This document shows positions 8,063 to 29,042 of a stretch of 29,042 nt of DNA, piece by piece. The notes beneath the pieces are model-generated. The model was not told where the DNA came from. It did not search any database and saw only the letters and a list, made by a program, of their open reading frames with translations. A program made the position numbers and the translations under genes. Every line of letters begins with the position of its first letter. Position 1 is the stretch's first letter. The stretch lies in IMG/VR virus record IMGVR_UViG_3300009163_000013, positions 1 to 29,042 of that record. The stretch is one strand, 5' to 3'. Origin of the DNA: a virus.

Positions 8063-8068
8063 AGGCAC

Positions 8069-8096
8069 AAAAAAAAGGAGGCTATTACACCTCCTT
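8069..8096 (-). terminator. Intrinsic terminator after metallophosphoesterase gene
   Basis: On the minus strand AAGGAGG - TGTAATAG loop - CCTCCTT, followed by a run of T (8076-8069). It lies about 50 bases after the gene's stop and closes the late transcription unit. Confidence 0.85.
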
Positions 8097-8144
8097 AATC
8101 AATCCAAACCTAAACAAAACAAAAATTTTAACTCTGCAAATATA

Positions 8145-13079: not shown

Positions 13080-13095
13080 ATATTATAATGGTTAT
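13080..13095 (-). promoter_or_regulatory. Start element ACCATTATAA, copy at 13079 gene
   Basis: On the minus strand ACCATTATAATATATG: the element, three bases, then the ATG. It follows the tail-tube terminator, so new transcription or strong initiation is needed here. Confidence 0.55.
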
Positions 13096-13117
13096 TAATT
13101 ACGATTTGTTATAAAAC

Positions 13118-13145
13118 AAAAAACCCCCACTAATAAAGTGAGGGT
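13118..13145 (-). terminator. Intrinsic terminator after tail tube gene
   Basis: On the minus strand ACCCTCAC - TTTATTA loop - GTGGGGGT followed by T6 (13123-13118); eight pairs with one G-U. It begins about 18 bases after the gene stop. Confidence 0.85.
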
Positions 13146-13163
13146 AGGGATAGCAAAGTTTAC

Positions 13164-13676
13164 TTAAACTAGTAAACCTGCAATGATAGTAGGGTCAATT
13201 TCGTATGCTAAAGTTTCATTTTCAGCGACCATCGTAATGGAATATTTACTACCGTCAGCCTTCGCAGTTCCACTTCCTTCAGCAACAGCCGTTACTTGTG
13301 CAGTTGGAAAATACCAATACTTACCGTTAGCATCTAAAACGATTACTGCAAGATCTCTTTGTCCTTCTCCTAAGATTTTGATTGAACGAGATTTCGCTGC
13401 TTCACGTCTGTGAAACATTAGTGTAATAGTTGCAGTTACAAAAGATGAGCCATTGATTAAATCATTAGCTTGGTCTTCTGTGTACATTCCTGTGTTACGT
13501 TTGAACTCAAAAGGAATGAATGGTGCAGATGTAGTCATCGCAGTTACTTCCCAGTTAGCATCGTCTACAGTTACTGAAGTTACTTCGCCTTGGTCGTTTA
13601 TGAATACTGTTTGGATACCACCGATATTATTGTCGCATCCTTTAGTTATTGTCGTTATTGTGTTACAAATTGGCAT
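13164..13676 (-). CDS. Major tail tube protein
   Basis: A 170-residue protein. The start MPICNTITTITKGCDNNIGG is typical of Bacteroidota siphophage tail tube proteins ('GCDNN.GGI' followed by a strand). A central EFKRNTGMYTEDQANDLING and ATITLMFHRREAAKSRSIKI fit a tail-tube beta sandwich with a long loop. A C-terminal strand block (KYSITMVAENETLAYEIDPT) follows. It polymerises around the tape measure protein. A strong terminator follows, suiting an abundant, separately bounded message. Confidence 0.7.
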   Translation of the reverse strand: MPICNTITTITKGCDNNIGGIQTVFINDQGEVTSVTVDDANWEVTAMTTSAPFIPFEFKRNTGMYTEDQANDLINGSSFVTATITLMFHRREAAKSRSIKILGEGQRDLAVIVLDANGKYWYFPTAQVTAVAEGSGTAKADGSKYSITMVAENETLAYEIDPTIIAGLLV

Positions 13677-13689
13677 AATTTTTTATGTA

Positions 13690-13702
13690 TTAAAAAAGGG
13701 GT
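13690..13702. repeat. 13-base direct repeat flanking HNH gene, copy 1
   Basis: TTAAAAAAGGGGT, identical to 14051-14063. It ends immediately next to the HNH gene's stop codon. Confidence 0.65.
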
Positions 13703-14002
13703 TTATTTTTTCCAATCTTTGTTTATATAAGTTTTTAATCTATGACAATTGGCACATAAAGTTTGAAGATTTGATGTTTCGTTATTTTTGTTATTACCAT
13801 CTATATGGTCAACATCTAATTGACATATATGTAATGGAATAAACCCACAACTTGAACATTTACTTTCTAAAGATAATCTATATCTTCTTTTTTTAAATGT
13901 TCTTCTCTCCATACTGCTCCACTTACATTTTCTACTACAAAATCTTTTATTTGATTTTAATATAAATGTATTGTCACAATTTTTATACTCACAAACTTGC
14001 AT
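13703..14002 (-). CDS. HNH homing-type endonuclease
   Basis: A 99-residue free-standing nuclease. Zinc-knuckle cysteines appear at 4, 9, 22 and 26 (CEYKNC, then FCSRKC) and at 49/52. The HNH core is LDVDHIDGNNKNNETSNLQT (62-81) followed by LCANCHRL, with Asp65-His66, the NNETSNLQ asparagines and C83/C86-His87. It lies between the capsid and tail tube genes, a frequent home for homing endonucleases, and is flanked by identical 13-base repeats. It probably cuts DNA lacking the insertion and spreads by repair. An HNH protein helping terminase is less likely because it lies far from the terminase genes. Confidence 0.8.
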   Translation of the reverse strand: MQVCEYKNCDNTFILKSNKRFCSRKCKWSSMERRTFKKRRYRLSLESKCSSCGFIPLHICQLDVDHIDGNNKNNETSNLQTLCANCHRLKTYINKDWKK

Positions 14003-14050
14003 TAGACATCAACTTTTAATAAGTAAATATACAAATAATAATTGATATTT

Positions 14051-14063
14051 TTAAAAAAGGGGT
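14051..14063. repeat. 13-base direct repeat flanking HNH gene, copy 2
   Basis: TTAAAAAAGGGGT, identical to 13690-13702. This copy doubles as the T-run side and stem base of the capsid-gene terminator. Confidence 0.65.
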
Positions 14064-14085
14064 AGCTTTTTTATTTAACTACCCC
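14053..14085 (-). terminator. Intrinsic terminator after major capsid gene
   Basis: On the minus strand GGGGTAG - 13-base loop - CTACCCC followed by T6 (14058-14053). It lies about 27 bases after the capsid gene stop. Confidence 0.8.
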
Positions 14086-14111
14086 ACCCCTCTCTAGTTA
14101 GTAATTAGTTC

Positions 14112-15029
14112 TTAAGAATAAAGAACGATTTCTGTTGGATTAGTATACCAGAATCCTACCTTCAAGTTAGCACGAGTTCTCAAATATGGCTCAGCAACTG
14201 TATCATTCAAGTTAACTGCTCTTAATGCTTTAGCATCAGCTTCAGAATCAAATGCATAAATCAAGTTGTTCTTCAAAGTAAGAACTGCAGTATCGTTAGG
14301 AAGACCTTCAGCAACTACCATCTTAATACCTAAGAAAGTCAAAGCAAGAGGAGTAGTAACATAAGTTTGAGTGTTACCTTGTGCAGCAGCTAATTCATAA
14401 GCAGTAGCAATGTTAGAAGAAACATAAAATCTTAAGTCAGCTTTCTTACGTTTAATAGTAGCAGGAGCAGCATTCAAAATCAAAGTTAATTGTGCAATAA
14501 CGTTTGTTGCATCAATAGATACATTAGCAACATCAACTACTGCAGCATCAGCTAATAATCTCTTAAGATATCCATCGCATAAAGAAAGTAATGCATCTAC
14601 AGAATCTGTGTCACCTTGCCATCTTAACAACTCAACATCTTCACCAATTTGCATCGACATAGTTTCCCAGTAGTAAGACATAAAACTAGCAACTTCAAAA
14701 CTTCCGTTAGAACCTGCAGCCATTTGCAAAGAAAGGAATGATTGCTCTAAGTCGAATTGACAGATTTGAGCCATAGCAGATAATGCACATACGTCAATAT
14801 CGATTGCATCTAATGAATCGGTAGGTGCAGAGAATGCACAAGTACTTGATTGTAGGATAGAGCCAAAAGCAACATTAGCTAATTTAGTAGCTGACTTGAT
14901 ACCAGGCAAAGTACGGTAGTTGTCTACAATATCTTCAGTAATATAAGCACGAGAATAAAACTCGTTAGGATTAGCACATAAAAGTGCGTTTGTTTCAATA
15001 TCTAAATTGAATTTTAAGTTTCTTGACAT
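14112..15029 (-). CDS. Major capsid protein
   Basis: A 305-residue protein directly after the protease-scaffold gene (4 bases apart) and followed by a strong terminator, as expected for the most abundant virion protein. The sequence has an N-terminal helix region, then FASILQ-type helices, a central acidic helix (QIGEDVELLRWQGDTDSVDA) and the strand NVSIDATNVIAQLTLILNAA. It ends TRANLKVGFWYTNPTEIVLY, like the final strand of HK97-fold capsid proteins. The start is preceded by an A-rich leader (GACTAAAAAAATG). The role is clear from context and fold-like features; no single motif proves it. Confidence 0.8.
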   Translation of the reverse strand: MSRNLKFNLDIETNALLCANPNEFYSRAYITEDIVDNYRTLPGIKSATKLANVAFGSILQSSTCAFSAPTDSLDAIDIDVCALSAMAQICQFDLEQSFLSLQMAAGSNGSFEVASFMSYYWETMSMQIGEDVELLRWQGDTDSVDALLSLCDGYLKRLLADAAVVDVANVSIDATNVIAQLTLILNAAPATIKRKKADLRFYVSSNIATAYELAAAQGNTQTYVTTPLALTFLGIKMVVAEGLPNDTAVLTLKNNLIYAFDSEADAKALRAVNLNDTVAEPYLRTRANLKVGFWYTNPTEIVLYS

Positions 15030-15033
15030 TTTT

Positions 15034-15984
15034 TTAGTCTTTATTAAATTGATTAAACTTCATTAATTTTTCGTGAGCAGTTAATTTTTGCTCGGTAACA
15101 TCCGTAATCGCTTCTTCTTCAAGCGTTGGAATCATTGCTTTTACTTCTGCAATAAGTTGAATTAGTTCGTTGTATTTTTCATCGATTGCAGGCATAACGA
15201 TTGCTAGGATAGCTTCAGCATCAGCAGTTGGGTCGACAGACATTTCTTCTTCTTCGACAACTACTTCTTCTTCTACTACTTCTTCAGCCATTACTACCTC
15301 TTCTTCAACTACTTCTTCAGCTACTACTTCAGTTGCAGGTGCATCTTTCACTTCAACAATTTCACCGTCTTTGACAACGTAGATTTTGCCTTCAATCAGA
15401 TGTTCTCCGTCAGGTAAATTCATACTATTATTTATTATTTGATTACTATTTAATTTCAATCCTAAGAATCCTTCAATAGAGAATCCTAACTGCTCACTTT
15501 CAACAAGTTTATTGTAATACTCTTTGTCAGTAATTTGAGCAGTCAACATCAAAGTTCCTTTAGGCACTTCAATACCGTAAGAACTATATGCTTTATCAGA
15601 TTTAGGATTCTCAACTATCCAACTTTCTAGAATGTATGCTGGTACTGTTTGCCCTGCGTCATGTTCTAAGTTGAAAAGATTTTTATTGTTTAGATTCTGC
15701 ATAAAATCAGAGTATATCGTTTCAATCTCTTGCTCAGAAAATTGAACGTAATATTCTCCTTCTTCATCGTTTCTATAAATATCCATTGGAATCATAGCAG
15801 GTGCTACAATTCTCATCTTTGGCTCATCAGCAAACTGCATTACTTTAGTATGACTATTAAAAGCCATACCTTTGACTAAGATAGCAGGTTTAGAAGTGAA
15901 GGCAACCTGTTCAATTCCTAGTACTTCACCATCAGAATATTCTTCGTCAATCGTAACTTTAAAAATAGGAATGTCATTCGCCAT
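15034..15984 (-). CDS. Prohead protease fused to scaffold (XkdF-like, S78_2)
   Basis: A 316-residue protein in two parts. Residues 1-180 are an XkdF-like serine protease: NLEHDAG (105-111, His108), ILESWIVE (118-125) and GFSIEGF (167-173, Ser169) are the family landmarks. Residues about 215-250 are a low-complexity run of Val and Glu (AEEVVEEEVV-type repeats), and the rest is a helical region (AIDEKYNELIQLIAEVKAMI) ending in KLMKFNQFNKD, suited to a scaffold core. The protease likely matures the prohead and removes its own scaffold. It carries the start element 3 bases before the ATG and is followed at once by the capsid gene. Confidence 0.8.
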   Translation of the reverse strand: MANDIPIFKVTIDEEYSDGEVLGIEQVAFTSKPAILVKGMAFNSHTKVMQFADEPKMRIVAPAMIPMDIYRNDEEGEYYVQFSEQEIETIYSDFMQNLNNKNLFNLEHDAGQTVPAYILESWIVENPKSDKAYSSYGIEVPKGTLMLTAQITDKEYYNKLVESEQLGFSIEGFLGLKLNSNQIINNSMNLPDGEHLIEGKIYVVKDGEIVEVKDAPATEVVAEEVVEEEVVMAEEVVEEEVVVEEEEMSVDPTADAEAILAIVMPAIDEKYNELIQLIAEVKAMIPTLEEEAITDVTEQKLTAHEKLMKFNQFNKD

Positions 15985-15997
15985 ACATTATAATGGC
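15985..15997 (-). promoter_or_regulatory. Start element GCCATTATAA, copy at 15984 gene
   Basis: On the minus strand GCCATTATAATGTATG: element, three bases, ATG. It lies in the short divergent region between the protease gene and the plus-strand chaperone genes. Confidence 0.5.
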
Positions 15998-16015
15998 ATA
16001 TACTTTTTTTTGTTA

Positions 16016-16031
16016 TATTTTTGTATATTTG
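16016..16031 (+). promoter_or_regulatory. -7-like elements for plus-strand chaperone genes
   Basis: TATTTTTG (16016-16023) and TATATTTG (16024-16031) both fit TAnnTTTG on the plus strand, 14-22 bases before the ATG at 16045. A TTG at the -33 position is lacking for both. One of them is the likely promoter of the only plus-strand unit. Confidence 0.4.
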
Positions 16032-16044
16032 TCAAAAAAACGTT

Positions 16045-16602
16045 ATGATAAAAATCGGAACTAAAAAGATTAACAATGAAGTTACTGAGTTGACTATTGA
16101 ACAGTTTGAGAAACTTAGTACAACTATTAACAATAAAGAACTTGACCAGTTTGAAAAGTGGGCAAAGATATTCATTGACTTAGGAGCAGATGAAGATGAA
16201 GTGTATGATTTAGACTTTGATAAGTTTACAGAAATTGTAAAGAAATTCTCTGACACTAAGAAAAAGCCTGACACAAAGTTTTTAAAATCAATCGAAGTAG
16301 ATGGATATACTTACCAATCTTATGAAGATGAGTTTAAATTGAATGTGCGTGATTTAAAAATGATTGAAAAGGCAGTATCTACAAGTCCTGAGAATTATGT
16401 TTCTAAAGTTTTGGCTATAATATTTAAGAGAACTGACTTAACTAAAGCAGAACACTATGGAGATTCACATCTTGCATTGAAATCAAAAATGTTTAAAGAA
16501 CAAAAAGCAAATATTGCTATACCTTTTATGGTGTATATTGGTCAAAAGTTAGGTACTACTGCTAAAAATATGCAAGTTGAAGCTGCCGAAATCGTGGAAT
16601 GA
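16045..16602 (+). CDS. Tail assembly chaperone-like protein 1
   Basis: A 185-residue protein read from the ATG at 16045 (MIKIGTKKINNEVTELTIEQ); the frame is open from a TTG at 16021 but that lies in the promoter. ELTIEQFEKL is followed by an acidic helix region (YDLDFDKFTEIVKKF), a strand pair (KSIEVDGYTYQSYEDEFKL) and a helical C-terminus. The same order is found in the next protein, so the two are paralogues. Adjacent overlapping genes sharing an N-terminal domain near the tape measure gene are typical of G/GT-type chaperones that guide tape measure protein during tail assembly. It is one of only two plus-strand genes. Assignment rests on pattern and context. Confidence 0.55.
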   Translation: MIKIGTKKINNEVTELTIEQFEKLSTTINNKELDQFEKWAKIFIDLGADEDEVYDLDFDKFTEIVKKFSDTKKKPDTKFLKSIEVDGYTYQSYEDEFKLNVRDLKMIEKAVSTSPENYVSKVLAIIFKRTDLTKAEHYGDSHLALKSKMFKEQKANIAIPFMVYIGQKLGTTAKNMQVEAAEIVE

Positions 16603-17311
16603 TATAACTGTTGAACAATTCATTGAATTAAGGTCATTAAATACTAGTGACTTTGATTCTTTGTTTAGTTATGAGATAGAATGTCTATCTATTTTAACTG
16701 ACATTGATGTAGATGAATTTGATGATTTAGATATTGACGAACTGGCAAAGATAGTTAAGCAGATTACATTTATAAAAAAGCAACCAACTAACATCTTTAA
16801 GAATAAAGTAAACAATTTTGTTTATATTGGATTAGATAATTTAAAGTTAGGCGAGTTCATAGATTTGGAATACTACTTCGCTAATGACTATGTTAAGCAT
16901 CTGACTTATATTAGTTCAGTTTTGTATCGTAAAACTAAAATAAGCGAATGGCAAGAATTGATTTATGAAGATTATTCGTTTGATATTGAAAAACGCAAAG
17001 AACAGTTTAACGAGTTACCTATTACATCAGTCTACGGAATCTGCTCCGAGTATATGAAGTATCGTGATAACTTCTTAAAAGTATATGAAAATCTATTTAA
17101 CCCAATCTTTGACGAAGATGAACTAGCAGAAGAACTAGACGAAGAAGATATTAAAGAACAGGAACAAGAAGATAAGATTAATAGATGGAGTTGGGAGCAT
17201 ACGTTGTATAATTTAGCAAACGAAGATGTGACTAAAATAAAAGACGTACTAGAACTGAATCTAGTATTCGCTTTTAATATGTTAGGAATGAAAAAAGAAT
17301 TAGAGATTTAA
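16577..17311 (+). CDS. Tail assembly chaperone-like protein 2, TTG start or frameshift product
   Basis: A 244-residue protein starting at TTG 16577 (M-KLPKSWNDITVEQFIEL), inside the 3' end of the preceding gene in the +1 frame; the frame is closed by a TAG at 16550, so the start must lie in 16553-16600. A full N-terminal domain like that of protein 1 (DITVEQFIEL, DLDIDELAKIVKQ) argues for independent TTG initiation coupled to the upstream stop. A +1 slip at the A5 run (16564-16568) is an alternative. The C-terminal part has an acidic run (EDELAEELDEEDIKEQEQED) and WSWEHTLYNLANEDVTKIKD, resembling the second part of chaperone pairs in these phages. Confidence 0.55.
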   Translation: MKLPKSWNDITVEQFIELRSLNTSDFDSLFSYEIECLSILTDIDVDEFDDLDIDELAKIVKQITFIKKQPTNIFKNKVNNFVYIGLDNLKLGEFIDLEYYFANDYVKHLTYISSVLYRKTKISEWQELIYEDYSFDIEKRKEQFNELPITSVYGICSEYMKYRDNFLKVYENLFNPIFDEDELAEELDEEDIKEQEQEDKINRWSWEHTLYNLANEDVTKIKDVLELNLVFAFNMLGMKKELEI

Positions 17312-17724
17312 GCTCTCACACTTGGATTAGGTAAACCTAAAGGGTCATCTATCCAATTAAACTCAACAAACATCTTAGGATTGTTTAGAATCCTAGCCAT
17401 TTCTAACAATGGATATACTTCAAATTGCCATCTTATAAAGTCTTGCTTAATCTCAGCAGTAATTGCTTGAACTTCTGAACTTGCTAACCACTTCTCAGTA
17501 ATATTTTGTGGAGTTATGTAAATCGTTCCTTCATCTTGAAAGAAATAATAGTACATAACGTTTACTGTGATTGTGATGTTATTAAAGTTATCTGATTGCA
17601 TAGCAGAAATACGCACACTATCGTACATTGTACCGTAGTCAATTAAACCTAGCTTTTTAATCTCTTGTTGCAAAGCTCTTGCTAGTTTATTTCTTGTTGC
17701 GTATTTTACTTTGTATGTCGGCAT
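17308..17724 (-). CDS. Tail completion / HK97 gp10-like protein (tentative)
   Basis: A 138-residue protein starting MPTYKVKYATRNKLARALQQ, with a basic N-terminal helix and a strand-rich centre (NITITVNVMYYYFFQDEGTI) like small head-tail or tail completion proteins of the gp10 type. It converges on the plus-strand chaperone gene; the TTAA at 17308-17311 supplies stop codons to both. Position between tail fibres and capsid genes fits a connector or completion role, but the family call is weak. Confidence 0.4.
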   Translation of the reverse strand: MPTYKVKYATRNKLARALQQEIKKLGLIDYGTMYDSVRISAMQSDNFNNITITVNVMYYYFFQDEGTIYITPQNITEKWLASSEVQAITAEIKQDFIRWQFEVYPLLEMARILNNPKMFVEFNWIDDPLGLPNPSVRA

Positions 17725-17733
17725 TCTGCTAAA

Positions 17734-17958
17734 TTACGCAATTTGTTTGTATTTTTCTAGTTCAACATTAACCCAAGCCAAAACGTCTGAATCCTCCCAG
17801 CTTTTTGTATAGGTAAATCCGTTCAAATTAGTTCCGTATTTTGCGTTTATTAATACGTCAACACTTGCGATTTTATCTTGTACGTTGTCATTTACCGAAG
17901 TTACAATAACGTTTGTTACGTCTATTGTAGATGTGAAATTTTCTAGTTTAATTGTCAT
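17734..17958 (-). CDS. Hypothetical phage protein, 74 residues
   Basis: A short acidic protein (MTIKLENFTSTIDVTNVIVT, later DSDVLAWVNVELEKYKQIA). Strands in the first half and a C-terminal helix suggest a small structural or assembly protein. It sits 6 bases after the lectin-like protein gene and 9 bases before the completion-like gene. Unrecognised. Confidence 0.5.
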   Translation of the reverse strand: MTIKLENFTSTIDVTNVIVTSVNDNVQDKIASVDVLINAKYGTNLNGFTYTKSWEDSDVLAWVNVELEKYKQIA

Positions 17959-17964
17959 AATATT

Positions 17965-18576
17965 TTAAGTTAAAATTGTTCCTGTTACTGTAAAATTTCG
18001 TACCGCTAAATTAGAAGATGTTTCCGCTTTGTCTTTAGGATTTATTGCTCCAGCCGTACTAACTCCCCATGAGTAAACAGACGGAGCACTTTTCCAAGAA
18101 TTTGATGTATGAGATGAGAATGTTTGTGTAAATGCTGTGAAAGGAGAATAACCAATTGGATTTGCAAGTTCTCTATTTAAAATATTATTCCACTCAGTAG
18201 TATTTGCCAACCTCCAACCCGTAGTGAAAGTTCCAATAGAAATAGCTAAGCAAGTATCAATTGCATTATTCCACCCTCCAGAAGTTGTGTTAGTAGCTGT
18301 TCTTTTGTAGCCTAAAACCGTTGACCCGTCATAAGTAGACCAATCAATTGCAATGTTATTAGTATAAGTTGTACCGCCTAATTCATCAGTAAATCTGTTT
18401 GTATTTCCGAATGGATTATTACTCGCCAAAACAGTAAATGAAGTCGCACGACCAGCCTCCAAGTCGCCATCGTCTCCAGTTCTATAAGACGTTGTTTGAC
18501 CCGTTTTCATTAACTTTAAACCAACAGATGCTGCTGCTGCAGTTACTACTGCTTTTATATATCTGTTATCACTCAT
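17965..18576 (-). CDS. Tail fibre / receptor-binding protein with DUF1566-like domain
   Basis: A 203-residue protein. After a short N-terminal helix (IKAVVTAAAASVGLKLMKTG), it has TTSYRTGDDGDLEAGRATSF, an IDWSTYDGS strand region and GWRLANTTEWNNIL (about 141-154), the 'W-R-L-(P/A)-x-x-x-E-(L/W)' signature of the DUF1566/Lcl_C family, which has a C-type-lectin-like fold. Such domains at fibre tips bind cell-surface ligands. It starts on the TAATG of the larger fibre gene, so the two are probably made together, perhaps as fibre shaft and tip. No reverse transcriptase is present to diversify it. Confidence 0.55.
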   Translation of the reverse strand: MSDNRYIKAVVTAAAASVGLKLMKTGQTTSYRTGDDGDLEAGRATSFTVLASNNPFGNTNRFTDELGGTTYTNNIAIDWSTYDGSTVLGYKRTATNTTSGGWNNAIDTCLAISIGTFTTGWRLANTTEWNNILNRELANPIGYSPFTAFTQTFSSHTSNSWKSAPSVYSWGVSTAGAINPKDKAETSSNLAVRNFTVTGTILT

Positions 18577-19616
18577 TATTTAGTTATATTTAGATTAACA
18601 ACCGAAAGAGTTGATGCAGTTACTGTTATCTTACTTCCTATTGCTATTGTGTTTCCTAACGTATAAGCTACTCCATCATCTTGAATAGTAATAGTTGGAG
18701 CATTCAACACGTTGCTAACAGATGTTATAACCATACTATAAGGTGCATAGAAATCAACTGTAAGTGCAGCGACAAGTTCTATCGTATATTGTATTTTTAC
18801 ATTTTTCCAAAGCGAAGTTGATGAATCGTATTCTAATTGATTGCCACCAGTTACCGATGTAATAGAAACGTTATGAAGTTCTTGAAGTTCAAAGCCATTT
18901 TGTACACGAACAAATATTTCACCGTTGCTTACATTTGCCCTCGTTACAATTCCAATAAATACTAAGTGTGCAGGAGCAGCAGGTTTGTTAATTAATCCGT
19001 AAATTAAGTTTCCATTTGTACCTAACCAAACTGGGTCTCCTGCAGTTGCTGAAGCAGTATTTAAACCTGCTAAAAGTCCTTCAGTAATTACATAACCTTT
19101 GCCATTTAAAGCTAAGTTTTGAATAATTAAACCCATTGTTTTAGACGATGTTGCTTCTGTAGCATTAGATGCCTTGGTCACAACCATATTAGTTCCGTCT
19201 GCACTACTAACATATACCGCTTGTCCTTTTGTCATTACCTCTCCTGCTTTTACTTCGTGTTGAAGTGTTGATGCAGTTGCTGCAATTACCCAAGACCTAT
19301 CTGCACTTAAATCATAAGTAACTCCGTTGATAGTTAGATTTCTAGTATTAGGAACTAAACCTGCTATTGAAGGAATAGATGGCTTATTGAGTATTTCAGC
19401 GACTCCACTTACTGCATTCCAATCTGAGTTAACTTGAGCCGAAGGAATACTAGGAAGATTACTTAAATCATTATAGTCTCCAGTAGTTGCAACAGTTGCT
19501 AAATCAGCACTATTTGCTTTAAATGCTAAAGCATCAAATACTGCGTTGCTTGTGATAGGATTTAAACTGCCATCTGTAACGGCATCTTCTATTGGTATAT
19601 TTATATTTATTGCCAT
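18576..19616 (-). CDS. Tail fibre protein
   Basis: A 346-residue protein with known fibre-type modules. They are DGSLNPITSNAVFDALAFKA (15-34), the spacer-like SDWNAVSGVAEILNKPSIPS, RNLTINGVTYDLSADRSWVI (about 93-112) and a beta-rich domain with GQAVYVSSADGTNMVVTKAS and later IFVRVQNGFELQELHNVSIT. These pieces occur in many combinations in phage fibres and point to a trimeric beta-structured fibre. It overlaps the preceding tail gene by 10 bases. It likely contacts the host surface with the smaller lectin-like protein. Confidence 0.65.
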   Translation of the reverse strand: MAININIPIEDAVTDGSLNPITSNAVFDALAFKANSADLATVATTGDYNDLSNLPSIPSAQVNSDWNAVSGVAEILNKPSIPSIAGLVPNTRNLTINGVTYDLSADRSWVIAATASTLQHEVKAGEVMTKGQAVYVSSADGTNMVVTKASNATEATSSKTMGLIIQNLALNGKGYVITEGLLAGLNTASATAGDPVWLGTNGNLIYGLINKPAAPAHLVFIGIVTRANVSNGEIFVRVQNGFELQELHNVSITSVTGGNQLEYDSSTSLWKNVKIQYTIELVAALTVDFYAPYSMVITSVSNVLNAPTITIQDDGVAYTLGNTIAIGSKITVTASTLSVVNLNITK

Positions 19617-20239
19617 ACTACATTAAATGTTTCGTCTTTTATACTTGGTATTGTTACACTTGTTGTTACTCCGTTTACTATAAAGTTATAAGTAGTATCA
19701 GGTAAAATCAATAAACCACCACTTGCAACTGTTGTTAAATATGTACCATCACTATTTGTTACAGTTGCATCTTCACAAACAATAGGAGGATTAGGAGAAA
19801 TTGGATTCATTGGAATAGCACAACTTCCATAACTTGCTACTTCAAATGTAATACTCATTACCCAACCTGCAACATAATCTAAATCAAGATTGTTTAATGG
19901 TGACATACTTGCACTTCCAACAACGTCTAATTCAATGTCGTTGTCATTTGTGTAATATACATACATATCTTTTAATATCAACTGACAATCAGAAATAATA
20001 TTATTAAGATTTGCACGATCAGCTTGTATTAAATCAACGCAATATATATCTACTGTGAATTGATTCGTGTTTAGATTCTCAGTATCACTTGTTGGTGTAA
20101 CAAATACAACTGGATACTTTTCATCTATTGTAGCGAAGTTAGGCATCTGCTCTCTGAATTCTCCTCCGTACTTTTTTATTTGTAGATGAGCATTGCAGAA
20201 TGCTTCTATTTTATTTAATAGTGATTTATAGCTTGTCAT
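19607..20239 (-). CDS. Tail terminator-like protein with C-terminal extension
   Basis: A 210-residue protein coupled to the tape measure gene by an ATGA overlap. Residues 1-140 (YKSLLNKIEAFCNAHLQIKK, FTVDIYCVDLIQADRANLNN, YVAGWVMSITFEVASYGSCA) look like the alpha/beta fold of tail terminator or completion proteins that act on a tail-tube ring. Residues about 145-210 are a separate strand-rich module (SDGTYLTTVASGGLLILPDT, then NFIVNGVTTSVTIPSIKDET) that recurs in other phage structural proteins, linked by a proline-rich joint (NPISPNPPIVC). The second module was probably gained by fusion. Confidence 0.5.
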   Translation of the reverse strand: MTSYKSLLNKIEAFCNAHLQIKKYGGEFREQMPNFATIDEKYPVVFVTPTSDTENLNTNQFTVDIYCVDLIQADRANLNNIISDCQLILKDMYVYYTNDNDIELDVVGSASMSPLNNLDLDYVAGWVMSITFEVASYGSCAIPMNPISPNPPIVCEDATVTNSDGTYLTTVASGGLLILPDTTYNFIVNGVTTSVTIPSIKDETFNVVWQ

Positions 20240-22353
20240 AGTACTGCTGATTGTTGTATTTTACTCATCTTGTTTTGCACAGAAGTAATATCAGATTCTA
20301 CTACTACTGCTTTAACTACCATTTGACCACCTTGTTGTTGTTGACCATTTGCTCCAAAAGTATTACCGTTGTTATTAGCACCGAATAGATTAACTGAAGG
20401 AGTAGCTGCTTGTGTAGAAGTATCACCTCCTCCACCTCCTACTGCTGGCGGTGCAGTTGTAGTTGGTGTTCCTTTACCACCATATTTAGCAGATGCAATC
20501 TTCATAATATTGGCTACTGAAGTAGCACCTGCAAAAGCTAAAGATGCAATACCAACAGGACTAGGTACTGGACCAATAGCTATAGGTGACTGTGCTAAAG
20601 AAGATGTGATTGCTTTAAATCCATCTATTGTAGCCATTCCTAAATTCATAGCTTTTTGAATATAGAACTGTCTTTTTGCTCTTGCCTCTTTTGACTTCTC
20701 ATCTTGTTTACCGTAGCTATTAGATACTGCAAACATTCCTTCAGCTAAAGAGTTTACACTCGCAGCATACTTAGAGGCAATATCTGCTTTTTCAGTTAAT
20801 TCTTTATAATGATTTGCTCTTTTAATCTCAGCATATTTAGCATCAATCTCAGCGAGTTTCTTTTCCGTTTGTTCTTTTATAAATATCTCTGCATCTGCAG
20901 TCATTCCTAATGCTTCTAGTTGTGATTCACCTGCAGAAACTAAATCAGCTACTTCTTTTTCTTTAGCAGTTTGATTCGCTGCTTCTTTCATTGCCCAAAG
21001 TAAATCCTGCTGCTCTAATTGTTTAGCTGCTATTGCTGCATTCTTTTCTTTTTCTTTTTCAGCTTCCTTTTGATTTATCTTATCTCTTGCATCACCTGCT
21101 AACAGACCATACATTTCAATTAGCTTTAACTTTTCTTCTTGTTCTTGTTTCGTTGTAGCAACCTTAGCTTGTGTATCTTCAATTAATCTATTGTAAGCAA
21201 TCTGAGATACTTTCAATTCTTTTTTAACTCCTTCATCCATTAACTGAATGTCCAAGTCTTGATACATTCTCGCTGCTGCTAATCTATCTGCTTGGTATTT
21301 CTTTTCTGCTTCAATTTTTTTAGCATTAATTTCTCGTTGTTTATCTGCATTAGATTTAGCATTTTTAGAATGCTCATCTGATTGTTTTTTAGCATCTTCC
21401 TTTTTACGATTAGCTTCAGTCTTATCAATCACCTCAATCTGATGCATAGAATCTTTGACTACTTCTCTTTGCTCGTTATATGATTTTCTTAAAGCTAAAA
21501 TCTCTTCTTCATCTAAATCACCACTCAATCTTGCAGCAATCATTTTCTGTTTAATTGCTTCTAGTCTTGCAGCTGCAGTTTTTAAAAGCCAGTACTGTTT
21601 TTGCTTTTCCATGTAAACAGTATTCTGACCATCAAGTTTAGCCATTTCAATCTCTCTATCGAAACCTGCTACTACTGCTGCACTCTTTTCTTCGTATGCT
21701 GCTGCAGTTTTCTCAGCTGCTGCTGCTTGTGCATCTGCTGCATCTTCTGCAGCGTTATTAGATAAGCCTAACCAATCGCATAAATCTTTAAATGCTTGAA
21801 CAACCATATCAATCGCATCACCAATCCAACCGAATACTTTACCTACTGCATTAAGAATTGGCTTTAAGATTCCAAGTTTATTCATTACTAAAGCAATGAC
21901 TGCGACAATGGCTACAATCGCAGCAACCAATAAAAAGATAGGATTTGCTAATAATGAAATACCAAACTGAATGAATGCTTTAGATAAACTACCGACAACT
22001 GAAACTAAACCTTTAATGCCATTACCAATCGTTGCAGGTGATATACTTCCTAATGTTTGTTGGAACATCTTCGCTTTTCCTGCAGCTTCTTCAAAGTCCA
22101 ATGACATCAAAGAATCTTTCATACTACCGAATGAATTGGAGACCTGCTCAAATTTACTGCCTGATGCGAATACTGCTACTTGTTCATTAGCATCTGCAAG
22201 TTGGTCTTTCAATTCACCTGCTCTCATAGCAAGTTCCTGCATCTGCTTAGGGTCTGTTGCATTAGCAAGTTCCCCTTTCAACTCACGAAGTTCTGATTTA
22301 ATAGCTGCTAAGCCATTTAATTTAATAGGAATCTCAATCGGTGATGCTGCCAT
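20236..22353 (-). CDS. Tail tape measure protein
   Basis: A 705-residue protein with tape measure features. The N-terminal part contains long helices (IKSELRELKGELANATDPKQ, later AMRAGELKDQLADANE). A strongly hydrophobic pair of segments follows at about 125-160 (AFIQFGISLLANPIFLLVAA, AIVAIVAVIALVMNKLG). Then come an amphipathic stretch (VFGWIGDAIDMVVQAFKDLC), a long Ala/Lys/Glu-rich coiled coil (about 200-515) and a Gly/Gln-rich C-terminus. The length would set tail length; at about 0.15 nm per residue, as for other siphophages, this suggests a tail near 100 nm, which is an estimate only. It carries the start element 3 bases before the ATG. Confidence 0.85.
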   Translation of the reverse strand: MAASPIEIPIKLNGLAAIKSELRELKGELANATDPKQMQELAMRAGELKDQLADANEQVAVFASGSKFEQVSNSFGSMKDSLMSLDFEEAAGKAKMFQQTLGSISPATIGNGIKGLVSVVGSLSKAFIQFGISLLANPIFLLVAAIVAIVAVIALVMNKLGILKPILNAVGKVFGWIGDAIDMVVQAFKDLCDWLGLSNNAAEDAADAQAAAAEKTAAAYEEKSAAVVAGFDREIEMAKLDGQNTVYMEKQKQYWLLKTAAARLEAIKQKMIAARLSGDLDEEEILALRKSYNEQREVVKDSMHQIEVIDKTEANRKKEDAKKQSDEHSKNAKSNADKQREINAKKIEAEKKYQADRLAAARMYQDLDIQLMDEGVKKELKVSQIAYNRLIEDTQAKVATTKQEQEEKLKLIEMYGLLAGDARDKINQKEAEKEKEKNAAIAAKQLEQQDLLWAMKEAANQTAKEKEVADLVSAGESQLEALGMTADAEIFIKEQTEKKLAEIDAKYAEIKRANHYKELTEKADIASKYAASVNSLAEGMFAVSNSYGKQDEKSKEARAKRQFYIQKAMNLGMATIDGFKAITSSLAQSPIAIGPVPSPVGIASLAFAGATSVANIMKIASAKYGGKGTPTTTAPPAVGGGGGDTSTQAATPSVNLFGANNNGNTFGANGQQQQGGQMVVKAVVVESDITSVQNKMSKIQQSAVL

Positions 22354-22388
22354 ATTATATAATGGTGATTATTGAAGTTGTGTTTTAA
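22354..22388 (-). promoter_or_regulatory. Start element at tape measure gene, with AAAACAC block
   Basis: On the minus strand TAAAACAC (22388-22381 region) precedes ACCATTATATAATATG, with the element exactly three bases from the ATG. It occupies most of the 40-base gap after the large tail protein gene. Confidence 0.5.
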
Positions 22389-22393
22389 ATGAT

Positions 22394-25333
22394 TTAGAAT
22401 GAGTTTAAGATTATCCAATTAGTACCATCACTTGCAACTGTATAACAAACTTTTGTGGCTAAAGTCAAAGTCAACGCACCGTCTATTGTTTCTGTTCCAC
22501 TGGCATCTAATGTGATTACTCCTATACCACTATTTTTAATCACATAAACCCTTCCTTCTTTTCCAACTGCAGTAGGTAGAACTACGTTAAATGAATTTGC
22601 AGTACAATCAACTAAATAATCAAAATCTGTAAATGTATAGTTTGCCGTTTTGCTTACATAAGGAAACGTAATTGAACATTTATGTATGAAGTTGTTTTTT
22701 ACTTGTTCTGTGTTTAGATTGTTATCTGCATACACTTGAACTTTTGTGCTACTATATTTAGTTTTGTATCCTTCAAATCCATATTCAGAATTAGTAGATG
22801 TCATTTTTCTATATGATTGTAGAAGATTACCACCGTCAGTAGATTCAATCAAATCAAATCCATTTGTCGAATGGTTACGATTGTCGTCAAATGTTAAATC
22901 AGCATTTGCGTAATTGTCATTTATAGTATTTATGTTATCGTTTCCTCTATATATTCCATCTTCACTTACAACAAATCCATCTCCTTCAATTATACATTTA
23001 ACGTTCGGCATTATTATGTTATTCTTGCCTTTAATATAAGCATCTGCACCTATTCCTACAGTATTGCTATTATCTGTTATTGTTTGATTTACTCCTGTAT
23101 AAACTGCACTAAATCCACCGTGTGGTTTAATTGGTTTCTTAGTTATAAATGGTGCAAAATCTATCTCACTATCTGTACTTAATAATTCAACTTTTGTCAG
23201 TTGCTTATTATTAGCATCGTAGTCGATAATCTTGTTAATTGACCACCAAGAATTATCTATTCTAATCTTGTCATTTAGCTTTAACTTCTGAATGTCATCT
23301 TCTTTCAAATTGAAGTAAGCTATCAACATCTTGCCAGTATTGATTTGACTTATTGTACGTCTCCAATATGAATTATAAAGGTTGTTATCTGTAGGTGTGT
23401 AGTCATCGTAGAACATAAAATCGCACAAAGCAAAGTTTATATCTAACGTAGGATTCAACGCATCGTCATAGTGATGCATCAAAGGGTATTCTAAGATTCC
23501 GTACAGACCTGCAGAACCTGAATCTATAATTGTATATTGACTGCATGACTTCATGCCACCATCGTATAAGATACGAAGATTAGTTTTAGGCGAACTACCC
23601 GCTACGATAGGAACATAAGCACCGAATGTTGTTTGACCAATCGGTGAAGGTGAGAAGATTAATTCTTTTGTGTCTATTCCTTTTACATACTCGTTGTCAA
23701 AGACATATTCGACTTGACCGTACACTTCTCTTGTAGTATCGTAGTAAGTTACATTAGGTGTATCCTTGTCTTGCTTGTATGTTAAGATAAGTTTTTTTGA
23801 TGCTAGTTCTGGCAAGAAGTTTAGAATCTGCTCTTTGTCTTTTGCTAGTTTGTATGTCCAATCTTTCTCAACTCCACTATCATAGAAATCGTCACGAGTT
23901 TTTAGTATTAAAGTATTTGCGTTATTATTGTCTATCTCAACATATAGATTAAACATCTGAAATATTGACTTGACAAAATCTTTCTGCTTAATTTTATCAG
24001 GCACAAACTGATTCATATTTAAAAGTGTGCCTACCGACAAAGTATTAGATGAAATATTAGCACTTAATTTTAAAGATGTGTAGTTGAGTTGAGGAGTCAT
24101 TATAGCATCTACTACTGCGGAATCTACCCAATGTAAAGAAGTGTTAGAGTTTTCAATTCTTAATCCTATCTCAAAAGTTAATTGCTCCCCTGCTAATACA
24201 TTGCTGACTGGAATAATATAACTATTGTTTAAACTTATTATCGTTGTTGTACCTGGTGCAAATGGTGCTGAATTTATACCATCAGTCATAATGTCATATG
24301 GTATAGAATAAGTGCTTATTGGATAAGCAGCGACTGCACTTCTGAATACTCTTATTTCTAAATAGTATCTTTGTTTCGGAAGTGATGTATATGAAAAGAA
24401 AGTATTTAATAAACGCAAATCTCCTGCAGTAGCATTCACAAGTTGAACATCTCCTACTATGTCAATTCCTACATTAACACATTCTGCTCCTGACAATGGA
24501 AAAGCACAAGTGTATACTCCAGTAGCAGGATTGAACAAAGATTGAGTATCTACTATTTCAGTAAATGAAGTTAACGGTTCTGTAAAACTTGCAGTATATG
24601 GTGTTTGAACTATACTTACAATGTCAGCCGCGTGTGTTGCCTCAACTGTATAGTTTGAATAATCAATAGTAACTAAATCACCGTTGTAAGGAATAAGTAG
24701 CTTATCAAATCCACACGCAGCCAAAGAAGACCAATCATAATTATATCCTGCATTCTGAAATATTCTATCGAAATAAACCTTCGCATAAATAGCAGGTCGA
24801 AAATCAGAAAGATTATACAAGTTGCCAGTCATCCACGTCAAGCCATATTTATAGCCATCCGTTACATCGTGAGTAAATGAAGAATAAATGTTAGCTGAAT
24901 TTATTGCGTGGTTTAAATCTGAATAGTCAATGTCTTTTAACTCTTTAGTATCTATGTCAGTAAAGAATGTTGATGCTTGGTCTTTAATTAATACCGAATA
25001 TTCAATGTCTTGCTCAAAGCTAGTATCCTTTTGAATCTTATTAACTGACAACAACTGCACAAAGGCATCTGCAAGAATCGGAATGCCATTTTGAACAACC
25101 GTACATTTAGTCAAAGCATTGATATCAAATGTACCTGCTACTATATTGACATCGTAGTAGTGATTTAATAGATCGTGGTTATTCTTGTTTCCTACAAGTG
25201 TGATAGTCTTTGAAAATGCTCCTGCTCTTTTGCTTACATCACGAATATCTGCTACACCAAAGTTTAAAGGAAAAGCAGTATCTTCTTTAACATCTAAATA
25301 ACCAGTTGCTAGTTGTATTCTTACGTTATACAT
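22394..25333 (-). CDS. Large tail protein (tail tip / baseplate, fibre-like C-terminus)
   Basis: A 979-residue structural protein. The N-terminus (GYLDVKEDTAFPLNFGVADI, then RDVSKRAGAFSKTITLVGNK) is a well-known start of Bacteroidota phage tail-tip proteins. A central region (SIFQMFNLYVEIDNNNANTL, LNDKIRIDNSWWSINKIIDY) looks like a hub domain. The C-terminal 75 residues (NYTFTDFDYLVDCTANSFNV, then VLPTAVGKEGRVYVIKNSGI, DASGTETIDGA) form a beta module common at the ends of phage fibres. It overlaps the end of the preceding tail gene by 8 bases. It is likely the main tail-tip component near the receptor-binding end. Confidence 0.65.
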   Translation of the reverse strand: MYNVRIQLATGYLDVKEDTAFPLNFGVADIRDVSKRAGAFSKTITLVGNKNNHDLLNHYYDVNIVAGTFDINALTKCTVVQNGIPILADAFVQLLSVNKIQKDTSFEQDIEYSVLIKDQASTFFTDIDTKELKDIDYSDLNHAINSANIYSSFTHDVTDGYKYGLTWMTGNLYNLSDFRPAIYAKVYFDRIFQNAGYNYDWSSLAACGFDKLLIPYNGDLVTIDYSNYTVEATHAADIVSIVQTPYTASFTEPLTSFTEIVDTQSLFNPATGVYTCAFPLSGAECVNVGIDIVGDVQLVNATAGDLRLLNTFFSYTSLPKQRYYLEIRVFRSAVAAYPISTYSIPYDIMTDGINSAPFAPGTTTIISLNNSYIIPVSNVLAGEQLTFEIGLRIENSNTSLHWVDSAVVDAIMTPQLNYTSLKLSANISSNTLSVGTLLNMNQFVPDKIKQKDFVKSIFQMFNLYVEIDNNNANTLILKTRDDFYDSGVEKDWTYKLAKDKEQILNFLPELASKKLILTYKQDKDTPNVTYYDTTREVYGQVEYVFDNEYVKGIDTKELIFSPSPIGQTTFGAYVPIVAGSSPKTNLRILYDGGMKSCSQYTIIDSGSAGLYGILEYPLMHHYDDALNPTLDINFALCDFMFYDDYTPTDNNLYNSYWRRTISQINTGKMLIAYFNLKEDDIQKLKLNDKIRIDNSWWSINKIIDYDANNKQLTKVELLSTDSEIDFAPFITKKPIKPHGGFSAVYTGVNQTITDNSNTVGIGADAYIKGKNNIIMPNVKCIIEGDGFVVSEDGIYRGNDNINTINDNYANADLTFDDNRNHSTNGFDLIESTDGGNLLQSYRKMTSTNSEYGFEGYKTKYSSTKVQVYADNNLNTEQVKNNFIHKCSITFPYVSKTANYTFTDFDYLVDCTANSFNVVLPTAVGKEGRVYVIKNSGIGVITLDASGTETIDGALTLTLATKVCYTVASDGTNWIILNSF

Positions 25334-26747
25334 TGACAGTATTTTGGTTTGCGTAGGTAACTGTTATTGACTTCTTGAATAGTTTCTTGTTTCTTTGATT
25401 GTTTACTTCAAACGAATTCTCATTTATTGTAACTGCTGCATAAATATTATTAGGCAATTTTATGTAAACTAATGGCGAAGTAATCAACTGCTCAAAGTAT
25501 ATCGACATTTCTTCTGTCATCCAGTTTGTATTCAAGTCTAAAGTTTTAGTAACGTTGGATGAATAGACATTTTGTCCAAATGATTCAGTAGCATAACCCC
25601 ATTCTAAACTTGCAACACTTCCTTCAATGTCTCTATTGAATGATTGCTTCTGCACATTGCCTTTTTCGTATGCTCTCAACTGAAAAGCAAAACTTCCATA
25701 ACTTCCCATCCTATCCAAGAACAACAACGAGTAATCTTCAATCAAACATCTGTGGTCTATGTTTACTCTGTACTTTTGTGAATTTCTTGTTCCTGCTGAA
25801 TTAGCATACCAAAAATCATAGTACTGCGTATTAGTCTCTATAAGATTACCTACACCACTTACTAAAGTCAAAGTACCAAAGTTATTTGTTCCTACTGGTA
25901 CACCCGATATATAAGAATTCGTGTTTACTACTTTGCTGAATATATTGCCTCCATCGTTCTCAAAGTAAACAAAGCCTGTGGTTACATTGTTATTACCAAA
26001 GTTGATTATCAAGTCTTGATTCAAAGTAGAATAGAATCCAAGTTGTGGCATATCAGTTAATAGATAATCATTCGTTGTAGTCAAGATATAGTTACCTGCT
26101 GACCAATTGATGAAATTTAAGAATGACATCGCACCGTTAAAGACTACCTTATTTAAGTCAGTTAATATATTTGGTGTAATAGTCTTTCTGTTATCTGAGT
26201 AGCTGACCGTTCCATCAATCGCAGCATCTGTCACTTGAGACCACAATGAGTTAACAGTAAAAGAAGTAGTGCCAACTATTGACAAAACGGTAAACAGTCC
26301 TTCTAAGTTTGGATTAGCTGCTCCACCATCTGCTTGATTAATTCTAACTTGGTCACCCACTACATACGAATGTGTTGCAGTTATTCTTACGTTGCCTGAG
26401 TTATTAGACAATGAAGAAGTATATGTAATTGAAGTAATATACTCCTCGCCTATCTTGACATCGTAGTTGTAAAATGAATTTATAGCAGGATAGGTAACAG
26501 TTCCGTATAACTCACTATCATAACTTACTTTTGTTTGAAGTAGTTTAGATATATCTATTCTACCATATCCAGTTCCATACTCTGGAAAGACTCGATACTC
26601 TGCTATCTTCGTTGCTCCACCTTGTGGATAGATGTCAAAGATATATTTGTAACCTAGTAGATTCTTGTTAGTGCCATCTACTATGAACTTAATCGGATTG
26701 TACGCAGGTGTAAAATCTTGTGGTGCTGCGATTGATGTTATTGCCAT
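25326..26747 (-). CDS. Tail structural protein, minor
   Basis: A 473-residue, strand-rich protein. It starts MAITSIAAPQDFTPAYNPIK and FIVDGTNKNLLGYKYIFDIY, a pattern I associate with structural proteins next to the tail-tip gene in Bacteroidota phages. The region SGNVRITATHSYVVGDQVRI followed by a short loop resembles an embedded Ig-like or gp5-like domain. The gene is 31 bases after terminase and carries the start element and AAAACAC block upstream. It is probably a distal tail or baseplate component; exact role is uncertain. Confidence 0.55.
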   Translation of the reverse strand: MAITSIAAPQDFTPAYNPIKFIVDGTNKNLLGYKYIFDIYPQGGATKIAEYRVFPEYGTGYGRIDISKLLQTKVSYDSELYGTVTYPAINSFYNYDVKIGEEYITSITYTSSLSNNSGNVRITATHSYVVGDQVRINQADGGAANPNLEGLFTVLSIVGTTSFTVNSLWSQVTDAAIDGTVSYSDNRKTITPNILTDLNKVVFNGAMSFLNFINWSAGNYILTTTNDYLLTDMPQLGFYSTLNQDLIINFGNNNVTTGFVYFENDGGNIFSKVVNTNSYISGVPVGTNNFGTLTLVSGVGNLIETNTQYYDFWYANSAGTRNSQKYRVNIDHRCLIEDYSLLFLDRMGSYGSFAFQLRAYEKGNVQKQSFNRDIEGSVASLEWGYATESFGQNVYSSNVTKTLDLNTNWMTEEMSIYFEQLITSPLVYIKLPNNIYAAVTINENSFEVNNQRNKKLFKKSITVTYANQNTVNV

Positions 26748-26781
26748 ATCTTATAATGGTTAATTTTTCATTCGTGTTTTA
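26748..26781 (-). promoter_or_regulatory. Start element with AAAACACGAAT block at 26747 gene
   Basis: On the minus strand AAAACACGAATGAAAAATTA leads into ACCATTATAAGATATG. The whole intergenic stretch closely matches 124-154, which lies at another gene start. The ATG is three bases from the element. Confidence 0.55.
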
Positions 26782-27930
26782 GAAACTAAAGTAACTATCG
26801 TCTGTGTAGTAATTATCTTTTATGAATCGACCTGCATACTGAATAGCATCCATCGCATCGTCAAACAATTTGATAGGCTCATCTGTAATACTGTCACCTA
26901 CCTTCTTCCATTTATAGTTCTCATATTCACGTTTTAGATTTGGATTGTCAAGACATATAACTCCGAACGTCTTCACGTTATCTATTCCTTTCTTCACTCC
27001 CTTCGTTGCGTTGTTTATGTTATATCCTGCGATTTGTATCTCTGCTATTATCTCAGGTCTTGAATGGTCACCTAAGATATCAGCATTCTTGTCCACTCCT
27101 ATCTCATTCATTCGTTCTATCAACATCGTAGTTGTTAGATAGCTTTCATAGATCACCGATTCAACGAAGATGTCTTTCTCATTCCAGTACACTTTCATTA
27201 ATGCAGTTGGATGGTTATATCCAAAGTCAAGTCCATAACAGAATGATTCAAACCTAGCTGGTCTTTCTTTAACGAATTGCCAGTTACTATAGATGTTCGT
27301 TTTGCTTGTTGTCTTCTCCCCTAACGCATAGATTTGATACAATGCTTCATCTGTTCGTTTAAGGTCTTCAATCTGTCGCTTGATTGAATCAGGAAGGAAT
27401 GGATTGTCTTTGTATGTAGATTTTATTAGTATGCTTTCGTCTTCTGGAAGTTCGTATAACCAACTTGAACTATCAGATGGATTATAATCGAATATCATTG
27501 TATTCTCAGTTCTCATATTCAACTGCTGAAAATCTTCAAACCATAACTCATTCGCTTCATTGCACCATCCGATATCTCTTTTTCTACCTCTTATCTTCTG
27601 TTCGTCATCTACTGAGAAGAATTCAACGATAGAGCCATTACCAAATCGATATATATTCTCACTCTTATTGTGGCTCGTCACCTCATAGATTTCTAAGTCT
27701 TTCATTATCTCAAAGAAGTCACGCATCACAGTTGCTCTTAAAGCAGGAAACGTCTTTCTAACTATTGATACTACCTTGTTAGGATTTTGTAAGCAGTAGA
27801 CAATTATAACCTGACAAAGTGAATAGGTCTTGCTTGACCGTGAGCCACCTTGATTGATTATAAACCTAGTAGCTGAATCAGATAAGGCAGTATAATTCTG
27901 CTCAAAGATTTTAGTTGCTTTGATTTCCAC
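26779..27930 (-). CDS. terL: Terminase large subunit
   Basis: A 383-residue packaging motor of the PBSX/Terminase_3 type. The ATPase has Walker A GGSRSSKT (28-35) and a Walker B-like IGWCNEANEL (about 122-131). The nuclease has its three acidic sites in GLDFGYNHPTA, ILGDHSRPEI and DDAMDAIQYA (about residues 233, 287 and 360). It translocates DNA into proheads and cuts it. The start is GTG at 27930-27928, 20 bases before the end of the small subunit gene; the sequence ACCATTGTAA lies directly upstream of it, a variant of the late start element. Its position with the small subunit at the front of the late block is usual. Confidence 0.85.
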   Translation of the reverse strand: MEIKATKIFEQNYTALSDSATRFIINQGGSRSSKTYSLCQVIIVYCLQNPNKVVSIVRKTFPALRATVMRDFFEIMKDLEIYEVTSHNKSENIYRFGNGSIVEFFSVDDEQKIRGRKRDIGWCNEANELWFEDFQQLNMRTENTMIFDYNPSDSSSWLYELPEDESILIKSTYKDNPFLPDSIKRQIEDLKRTDEALYQIYALGEKTTSKTNIYSNWQFVKERPARFESFCYGLDFGYNHPTALMKVYWNEKDIFVESVIYESYLTTTMLIERMNEIGVDKNADILGDHSRPEIIAEIQIAGYNINNATKGVKKGIDNVKTFGVICLDNPNLKREYENYKWKKVGDSITDEPIKLFDDAMDAIQYAGRFIKDNYYTDDSYFSF

Positions 27931-28327
27931 TTACAATGGTTACTTTGATTTCGTTTATCTTTTCACCTTGAGATGTCACATCCGTTTTTTCAGTTAATGA
28001 ATTTAATCGTTGTGTAATACTTGGATTGAATTGACCAACCATACCTCCTTCAATTTGGTCTTGACGAATGACTTTCTTTATATGTGAACAGATAGTACGA
28101 TATGCGTCATATGCTCCTTCAGGATTATCAAAGTAATGATTTATTGTGCTATAATTAACAAAGCAAAAGTTCTCAAATCCTTCCATTGTAAACGGTGGTG
28201 TATGAAACTCAGACTTTACTCCTGTTGCAGTTGCTTTCTGTATCTCTCTTGGCTTTATGCTTGTCTTATACTCTTGGAATAGTTCGTATAGTTTCTCAGG
28301 TGTTTCTATATACTTATGTTTTGCCAT
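27911..28327 (-). CDS. terS: Terminase small subunit (gp3-like packaging protein)
   Basis: A 138-residue protein starting MAKHKYIETPEKLYELFQEY. A helix-turn-helix region (MEGFENFCFVNYSTINHYFD, 49-68) is followed by AYDAYRTICSHIKKVIRQDQ and GGMVGQFNPSITQRLNSLTE, then KTDVTSQGEK; this 'FNP-I..RLN-L-EKTDV' ending is typical of the gp3-like small terminases. It recognises phage DNA and loads the large subunit. The C-terminal strand (INEIKVTIVSGNQ) overlaps the large subunit gene by 20 bases. Confidence 0.75.
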   Translation of the reverse strand: MAKHKYIETPEKLYELFQEYKTSIKPREIQKATATGVKSEFHTPPFTMEGFENFCFVNYSTINHYFDNPEGAYDAYRTICSHIKKVIRQDQIEGGMVGQFNPSITQRLNSLTEKTDVTSQGEKINEIKVTIVSGNQSN

Positions 28328-28907: not shown

Positions 28908-29042
28908 ATTCGTTTATTAATAAAAATATTATGTGACTAAGAATCGCAGCAGCAACAAACTTGTTTGTGTATTCGTAATCATTCCATATTGCTACAGTCA
29001 TTCCAATAGATAGAACAAATGTACTTAATGCTATCCATCTAC
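28882..29042 (-). CDS. Small two-helix membrane protein, 3' part plus repeated terminal copy
   Basis: This is the remainder of the 54-residue gene that begins at 127. Bases 28920-29042 duplicate 1-123, so this copy lacks only the ATG and the following base; bases 28882-28919 encode the last 12 or so residues and the stop. It overlaps the start of the 78-residue gene (28907) in another frame by 26 bases, which suggests coupled translation. See the entry at 1-127 for the protein description. Confidence 0.6.
   Translation of the reverse strand, partial: RWIALSTFVLSIGMTVAIWNDYEYTNKFVAAAILSHIIFLLINEYEKNADKG
28920..29042. repeat. Terminal direct repeat, right copy (circular overlap)
   Basis: Exact second copy of 1-123. 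See left copy for interpretation. Confidence 0.95.

Follow-up and report, generated by a model that had tools for sequence, protein, structure and literature searches.

The 29,042-nt virus record IMGVR_UViG_3300009163_000013 of IMG/VR, analyzed over its whole length and referred to here as the window, carries the same short sequence, CCATTATA, a fixed distance ahead of the ATG codons of four minus-strand genes that start at positions 26747, 22353, 13079 and 15984. A preliminary description of the DNA viewed this sequence either as a phage-specific late promoter or as a translation initiator that operates independently of a Shine-Dalgarno (SD) site. The question posed by the locus is which of these roles the element plays and which factor reads it. 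The explanation that is favored here, with good though incomplete confidence, is that the element is a late promoter typical of a phage family, that it is read by a phage sigma factor resembling the extracytoplasmic function (ECF) class, and that it gives rise to leaderless late mRNAs.

A bipartite element upstream of structural and packaging genes

The element is bipartite and follows the consensus (A/T)AAC-N15-16-CCATTATA-N4-ATG, which was derived from IMG/VR orthologues and in which N15-16 is counted from AAC to CC. The window copies read ACCATTATAA-GAT-ATG at 26747, ACCATTATAT-AAT-ATG at 22353, ACCATTATAA-TAT-ATG at 13079 and GCCATTATAA-TGT-ATG at 15984, with positions and spacing exactly as first described. 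The genes concerned also proved to be uncoupled from an upstream gene, as had been proposed: one start is divergent, and the other three are separated from the preceding gene by 31, 40 and 84 nt. The CCATTATA part of the element was captured correctly in the preliminary description, but the AAAC box that stands upstream at a fixed spacing was overlooked. The -10-like role had been given to a TATAA(T) sequence, from which transcription would start inside the open reading frame (ORF); this candidate was dropped, and the real box is the invariant core CCATTATA with its first C at -12.

All of the assigned promoters are on the minus strand, and their scores derive from a weight matrix that was trained on relatives only and then applied to the window. 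P26747 (26751-26783) consists of the -35-like sequence TCTAAAACACGA (26783-26772), a 10-nt spacer and the core AACCATTATAA (26761-26751), and scored 29.1. P22353 (22357-22389; score 28.9), ahead of a tape measure-like gene, combines TTTAAAACACAA (22389-22378) with CACCATTATAT (22367-22357), again across 10 nt, as does P13079 (13083-13115; score 27.5) with TTTATAACAAAT (13115-13104) and AACCATTATAA (13093-13083). P15984 (15988-16019; score 24.6) serves a head gene operon and has a 9-nt spacer between AATATAACAAAA (16019-16008) and TGCCATTATAA (15998-15988). P26747 is conserved in orthologues, and P22353 and P15984 likewise have counterparts there.

A further site, P127 (124-156; score 21.7), comprises ATTAAAACACGA (156-145), a 10-nt spacer and the core AACCATTATGA (134-124) within the 3′ end of gene 120-656. 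The phage genome is ~28.9 kb and has a 123-base direct repeat at both ends (window 1-123 and 28920-29042), so that the window covers nearly all of the genome and its two ends can be joined; the record probably represents an entire genome of 28,919 bases that is either circular or circularly permuted. Across the circular junction P127 lies ahead of small genes, terS and terL. The site is conserved in near relatives, including one (L067) in which it reads AAACACGAACTCAATTAAATCTATTATCAATTATG and the spacer contains a stop codon, and P127 is probably a real promoter. Its upstream box bears out the site noted earlier at 127, but the ATG that had been assigned to it precedes the predicted start point. 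The variant ACCATTGTAA that touches the terminase GTG (27931-27940, minus strand) had also been listed as a copy; it is a coding coincidence, has no -35 box, and drifts in near relatives to ACTATTGTAA, ACTATCGTAA, ACGATTGTAA and others.

The preliminary description had made the standing of the element depend on its frequency relative to composition. The arrangement CCATTATA-N4-ATG occurs five times in the window, far above the mean of 0.02 and maximum of 1 in 300 shuffles, and the 10-mer by itself is weakly enriched when one mismatch is allowed (15 versus 7.2). The fifth occurrence, near 4904, falls within a gene by chance; it has no upstream box and opens an ORF of 4 codons. Five sites in the window (26747, 22353, 13079, 15984 and 127) exceeded a matrix score of 20 and the remainder, several of which are offset re-hits, reached at most 13.7; the mean maximum score of shuffled genomes was 13.4 and the largest of 60 was 22.0. 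Of the 73 distinct CCATTATA contexts in near relatives, 53 combine an ATG at +12 with an AACA box and an ORF of 40 codons or more, and 16 of the remaining 20, which are mostly scattered in genes, have none of these attributes. When 4.07 Mb of loci were scanned on both strands, 102 distinct matches were recovered, and shuffled DNA gave five. Of the 102, 83 are followed at 3-6 nt by an ORF-opening ATG and 10 are of the 127 type. A single generic pattern for all clades performed no better than shuffled sequence ('G generic', 73 versus 104). Clade-specific variants are needed as a result, and these rest on orthologue alignment.

Many relatives in IMG/VR retain the element ahead of the orthologues of these four genes, which are unrelated to one another, even where protein identity falls to about 35%; it is missing where the orthologue stands directly behind another gene. 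This distribution, together with counts far above chance expectation, makes it scarcely credible that the similarity of the four sites stems from recent duplication or from a composition bias without function, notwithstanding that the genome is A+T-rich and that the sequences compared are related.

A promoter role and the predicted start point

On several independent sequence grounds the element is a promoter, as one limb of the preliminary description had it, and not a translation signal. In one clade of relatives it drives a structured RNA that lacks a start codon where one would be expected, whereas a host-type promoter occupies this position in other clades. The spacing between the -35 and -10 boxes remains constant in other clades while the distance to the ATG shifts from 4 to about 17 nt (TCTAAACATTTGG...GCAATATAAGC-ATG versus ...GCAATATAAAGAAAAACATG). 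Within the window, an intrinsic terminator (13123-13145, minus strand) with a 9-bp stem, a T run and a fold z-score of -3.7 is placed directly upstream of P13079, and therefore a promoter is needed there; P13079 behind the terminator-like GGGGGTTTTTTG is a layout that most relatives conserve. In relatives of the L054-L078 type the late promoter behind terL is constant and the downstream gene changes, which entails that some phages have a leader of about 0 nt and others an A-rich one of about 7 nt.

Bacteroidota lack SD sites and depend on upstream bases for translation initiation, and in Flavobacterium johnsoniae A at -3, -6 and -12 is favorable (PMC6847099). An SD-independent initiator, in which mRNA would be made elsewhere and CCATTATA ahead of the AUG would recruit ribosomes, is in keeping with this habit and with the fixed spacing to the ATG in the window. 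Nevertheless, the four element genes do not display the Bacteroidota Kozak-like context: A at -3, -6, -12 and -13 occurs in 25, 0, 0 and 75% of them, compared to 68, 59, 79 and 65% of the other phage genes. An initiator also accords poorly with the AAAC box 30 nt upstream and its conserved internal spacing, with the variable distance to the ATG in other clades, and with the same element preceding a non-coding RNA. This second limb of the preliminary description is very improbable and was abandoned.

The structured RNA is ~90 nt long and is found in relatives. It has a 5′ hairpin and a second hairpin whose loops pair with each other, and ends in a terminator. Copies are located at L036:1835-1925, L059:1242-1332, L070:3856-3946, L102:18116-18206, L131:10467-10561, L119:14949-15041 and elsewhere; the L123 contig (G010) bears two on opposite strands (6726-6818 and 1794-1887). 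Strong covariation supports the proposed pairings: among 20 distinct copies, 111 cells changed on both sides compared to 38 in shuffles and no more than 32 in slid controls. The RNA has no match in Rfam, was present in seven of 10 tested contigs, and was not found when sought in the window itself. A scan of the collection with the RNA start pattern gave mostly chance coding matches.

The two classes of RNA promoter can be superposed. In 13 of the 20 copies the RNA is under TAHHTTTG and helix 1 begins 3-6 nt, mostly 4-5 nt, downstream, which is the distance at which mapped F. johnsoniae starts follow TAHHTTTG (PMC6847099). In the seven copies under the late promoter, counting from the first C, helix 1 begins at 11-13 nt, mostly at 12 nt. 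Assuming that both forms of the RNA share one start, late transcription would begin 12 nt beyond this C. The A of the ATG occupies that position in the four clear cases in the window, and the late mRNAs are predicted accordingly to be leaderless, a term that denotes here a start no more than a few nt from the start codon as placed by superposition rather than by mapping. Thus, the nearly leaderless mRNA suggested initially is upheld as a prediction: the late transcripts should be leaderless or nearly so, with a leader of exactly zero length being the value to which the superposition points.

A candidate sigma factor for the late promoter

Gene 120-656 (minus strand) is conserved and is the last gene before the late block. 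Its product is a predicted phage sigma factor of 178 amino acids with a sigma2-like region (residues 2-71) and a sigma4-like helix-turn-helix region (residues 93-177). The AlphaFold model (pLDDT 79) shows helices at 2-71 and 93-177 that are separated by a low-confidence linker (74-91). Foldseek comparison of the model with the PDB retrieved nearly exclusively sigma factors (SigH, sigmaE, SigL, AlgU, SigW), mostly of the ECF class, and included region 4 of Escherichia coli sigmaE bound to -35 DNA with a TMt of 0.71. A second family member yielded the same picture. Sigma2 and sigma4 joined by a linker, without sigma3 or region 1.1 and within about 160-200 amino acids, is the ECF domain arrangement that the protein shows; curated sigma2 and sigma4 sequence models did not recognize it. 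ECF promoters have a -35 element that contains AAC and is located about 16 nt from the -10 element. The late element possesses (A/T)AAC and 15-16 nt. Moreover, the -10 variant tracks the clade of the sigma protein, with CCATTATA at 89-97% identity, CTATTATA near 50%, ACAATATA near 40% and GCAATATAA near 37%, while AAAC is constant.

The sigma operon itself has a host-type promoter (1086-1115, minus strand; TTG-N19-TATATTTG), and its first gene really starts near 1067 and not at 1115. TAHHTTTG is found at this position in 44 of 58 distinct loci. A second host-type promoter (7776-7805, minus strand; TTG-N19-TAAATTTG) precedes the early operon that starts at 7745, and the TAnnTTTG form attributed previously to early promoters is right for both operons. 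The five window sites that scored above 20 all precede late-type genes.

Based on fold, the host-type promoter of its operon and clade tracking, the product of gene 120-656 is probably a divergent two-domain ECF-like sigma factor that reads the late promoter. The sigma gene would be transcribed earlier from the promoter at 1115-1086. Host RNA polymerase carrying the 120-656 sigma factor would then read the -35-like (A/T)AAC and the -10-like CCATTATA and turn on the head, packaging and tail genes, with transcription beginning about 12 nt after the first C, that is, at the A of the ATG. The timing implied by 'late' is deduced from gene content.

Certain observations weigh against this explanation. 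The Foldseek E-values are about 0.01 and the whole-chain TM scores are 0.25-0.36, the latter owing to the loose placement of the two domains. Twenty-five family members matched none of the Pfam sigma models up to an E-value of 0.1, and matches to PHROG sigma families were weak (best 0.013). A sequence search of the PDB with a sigma profile returned nothing, and tblastn detected no sigma relatives among 50,697 phage records. In view of the modest E-values and the lack of a Pfam match, the protein is termed ECF-like rather than a member of a named ECF group. The correspondence between -10 variant and sigma clade could reflect shared descent without contact, and the overlap of P127 with coding sequence could explain the conservation of that site. 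In addition, the promoter copies and the 20 RNA copies are related sequences whose counts are not independent events, and the case as a whole, in which 'late' depends on gene content, is built on sequences and structure models.

The divergence of the 120-656 protein, its failure to match a Pfam sigma model, and the location of its best sequence signal in the C-terminal helix-turn-helix also leave some room for a different reader. The late promoter might be recognized by an alternative (ECF) sigma factor of the host, or by the primary holoenzyme of the host together with a phage activator, in which case the 120-656 protein would be a sigma-like activator as proposed for proteins of the RinA/ArpU kind. 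This arrangement is considered unlikely, if less so than a translational role for the element: sigma2-like and sigma4-like domains are both present in the model, whose structural matches are full sigma factors, the promoter variant follows the clade of the phage protein, which would not be expected of a fixed host factor, and both promoter boxes are unlike the primary -33/-7 elements of the host. A phage-encoded ECF-like sigma factor is therefore the preferred reader.

Genome layout, host and related systems

The late-type genes, all on the minus strand, include terS (27911-28327) and terL (26779-27930) for packaging, the tape measure-like tail gene (20236-22353), head genes (14112-15984) and the portal gene (11398-12723), before which stands the gene that starts at 13079. 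Early-type genes are situated between about 9.2 kb and 1.1 kb. A conserved pair of plus-strand genes (16054-17311), whose mutual similarity is weak (E 3e-5), is embedded in the structural block. The divergent gene at 16054 has a conserved host-type -7 element TATATTTG (16024-16031, plus strand) that is back to back with P15984. The early region has two non-coding gaps of ~400 nt (7746-8144 and 5497-5889), the first of which contains a terminator-like GGAGGTGTAATAGCCTCCTTTTTTTT near 8097-8070, repeats such as GTGCAGTATAGTACACTT and GTGCCGTATAGTATACTT, and TATATTTG at 8144.

Judging from its promoter type, from the context of its translation starts and from distant relatives of its terminase, the window probably derives from a small freshwater phage of a Bacteroidota host. 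Terminase relatives were absent from 84,980 species genomes, in which no prophage was seen. The best cultured terminase matches, Bacteroides phage BU3-1 and Parabacteroides phage PM21P1, have no sigma annotation near the terminase.

The closest precedents are gp47 of Salmonella phage 7-11 and gp36 of phiEco32. The late promoters of phage 7-11 are bipartite (GTAAtg-(16)-aCTA) and were shown biochemically to be read by the sigma factor gp47 (PMC8948821). The likeness lies in a phage sigma factor acting with the host core polymerase at bipartite promoters before late genes; the window differs in its AAAC and CCATTATA boxes, in its inferred Bacteroidota host with TAHHTTTG primary promoters, and in the predicted start at the ATG. 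In passages of PMC4281155, gp36 is called an ECF sigma factor in SU10, a near-identical relative of phiEco32, and thus offers a small ECF-type phage sigma factor for middle and late genes. According to the same passages, phiEco32 promoters consist of a single element, tAATGTATAtA, 6-8 nt before the start, unlike those of the window, and a fixed abutment to the ATG is not reported there. The window sigma protein had no tblastn match to gp36 in the phage collection.

The primary TTTG/TAHHTTTG promoter of Bacteroidota (PMC6847099) precedes the early and sigma operons of the phage and the RNA in most relatives, but the late element differs from it in sequence and the late mRNAs are predicted to be leaderless. 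In F. johnsoniae, 87% of predicted transcripts from probable promoters have leaders of >10 nt (PMC6847099). A -10 box that abuts the ORF and yields leaderless mRNA is described for Deinococcus-Thermus in passages of PMC12340547, where the cases are cellular genes of another phylum rather than late genes of a phage. The literature searched, outside which most subscription journals lie, yielded no description of late transcription or late promoters in Bacteroidota phages. Compared to these precedents, the new aspects would be the promoter sequence, the inferred host phylum and the start at the ATG.

The analysis offers a concrete sigma candidate, its promoter, and a start that is predicted within a nucleotide or two, and one RNA reveals an evolutionary exchange between host-type and late promoters. 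The element allows late operons to be annotated in many uncultured phage genomes, and the promoters could serve as orthogonal parts in Bacteroidota. If the explanation is true, leaderless translation, which is reported to be rare in Flavobacterium, carries structural gene expression in a widespread family of freshwater phages.

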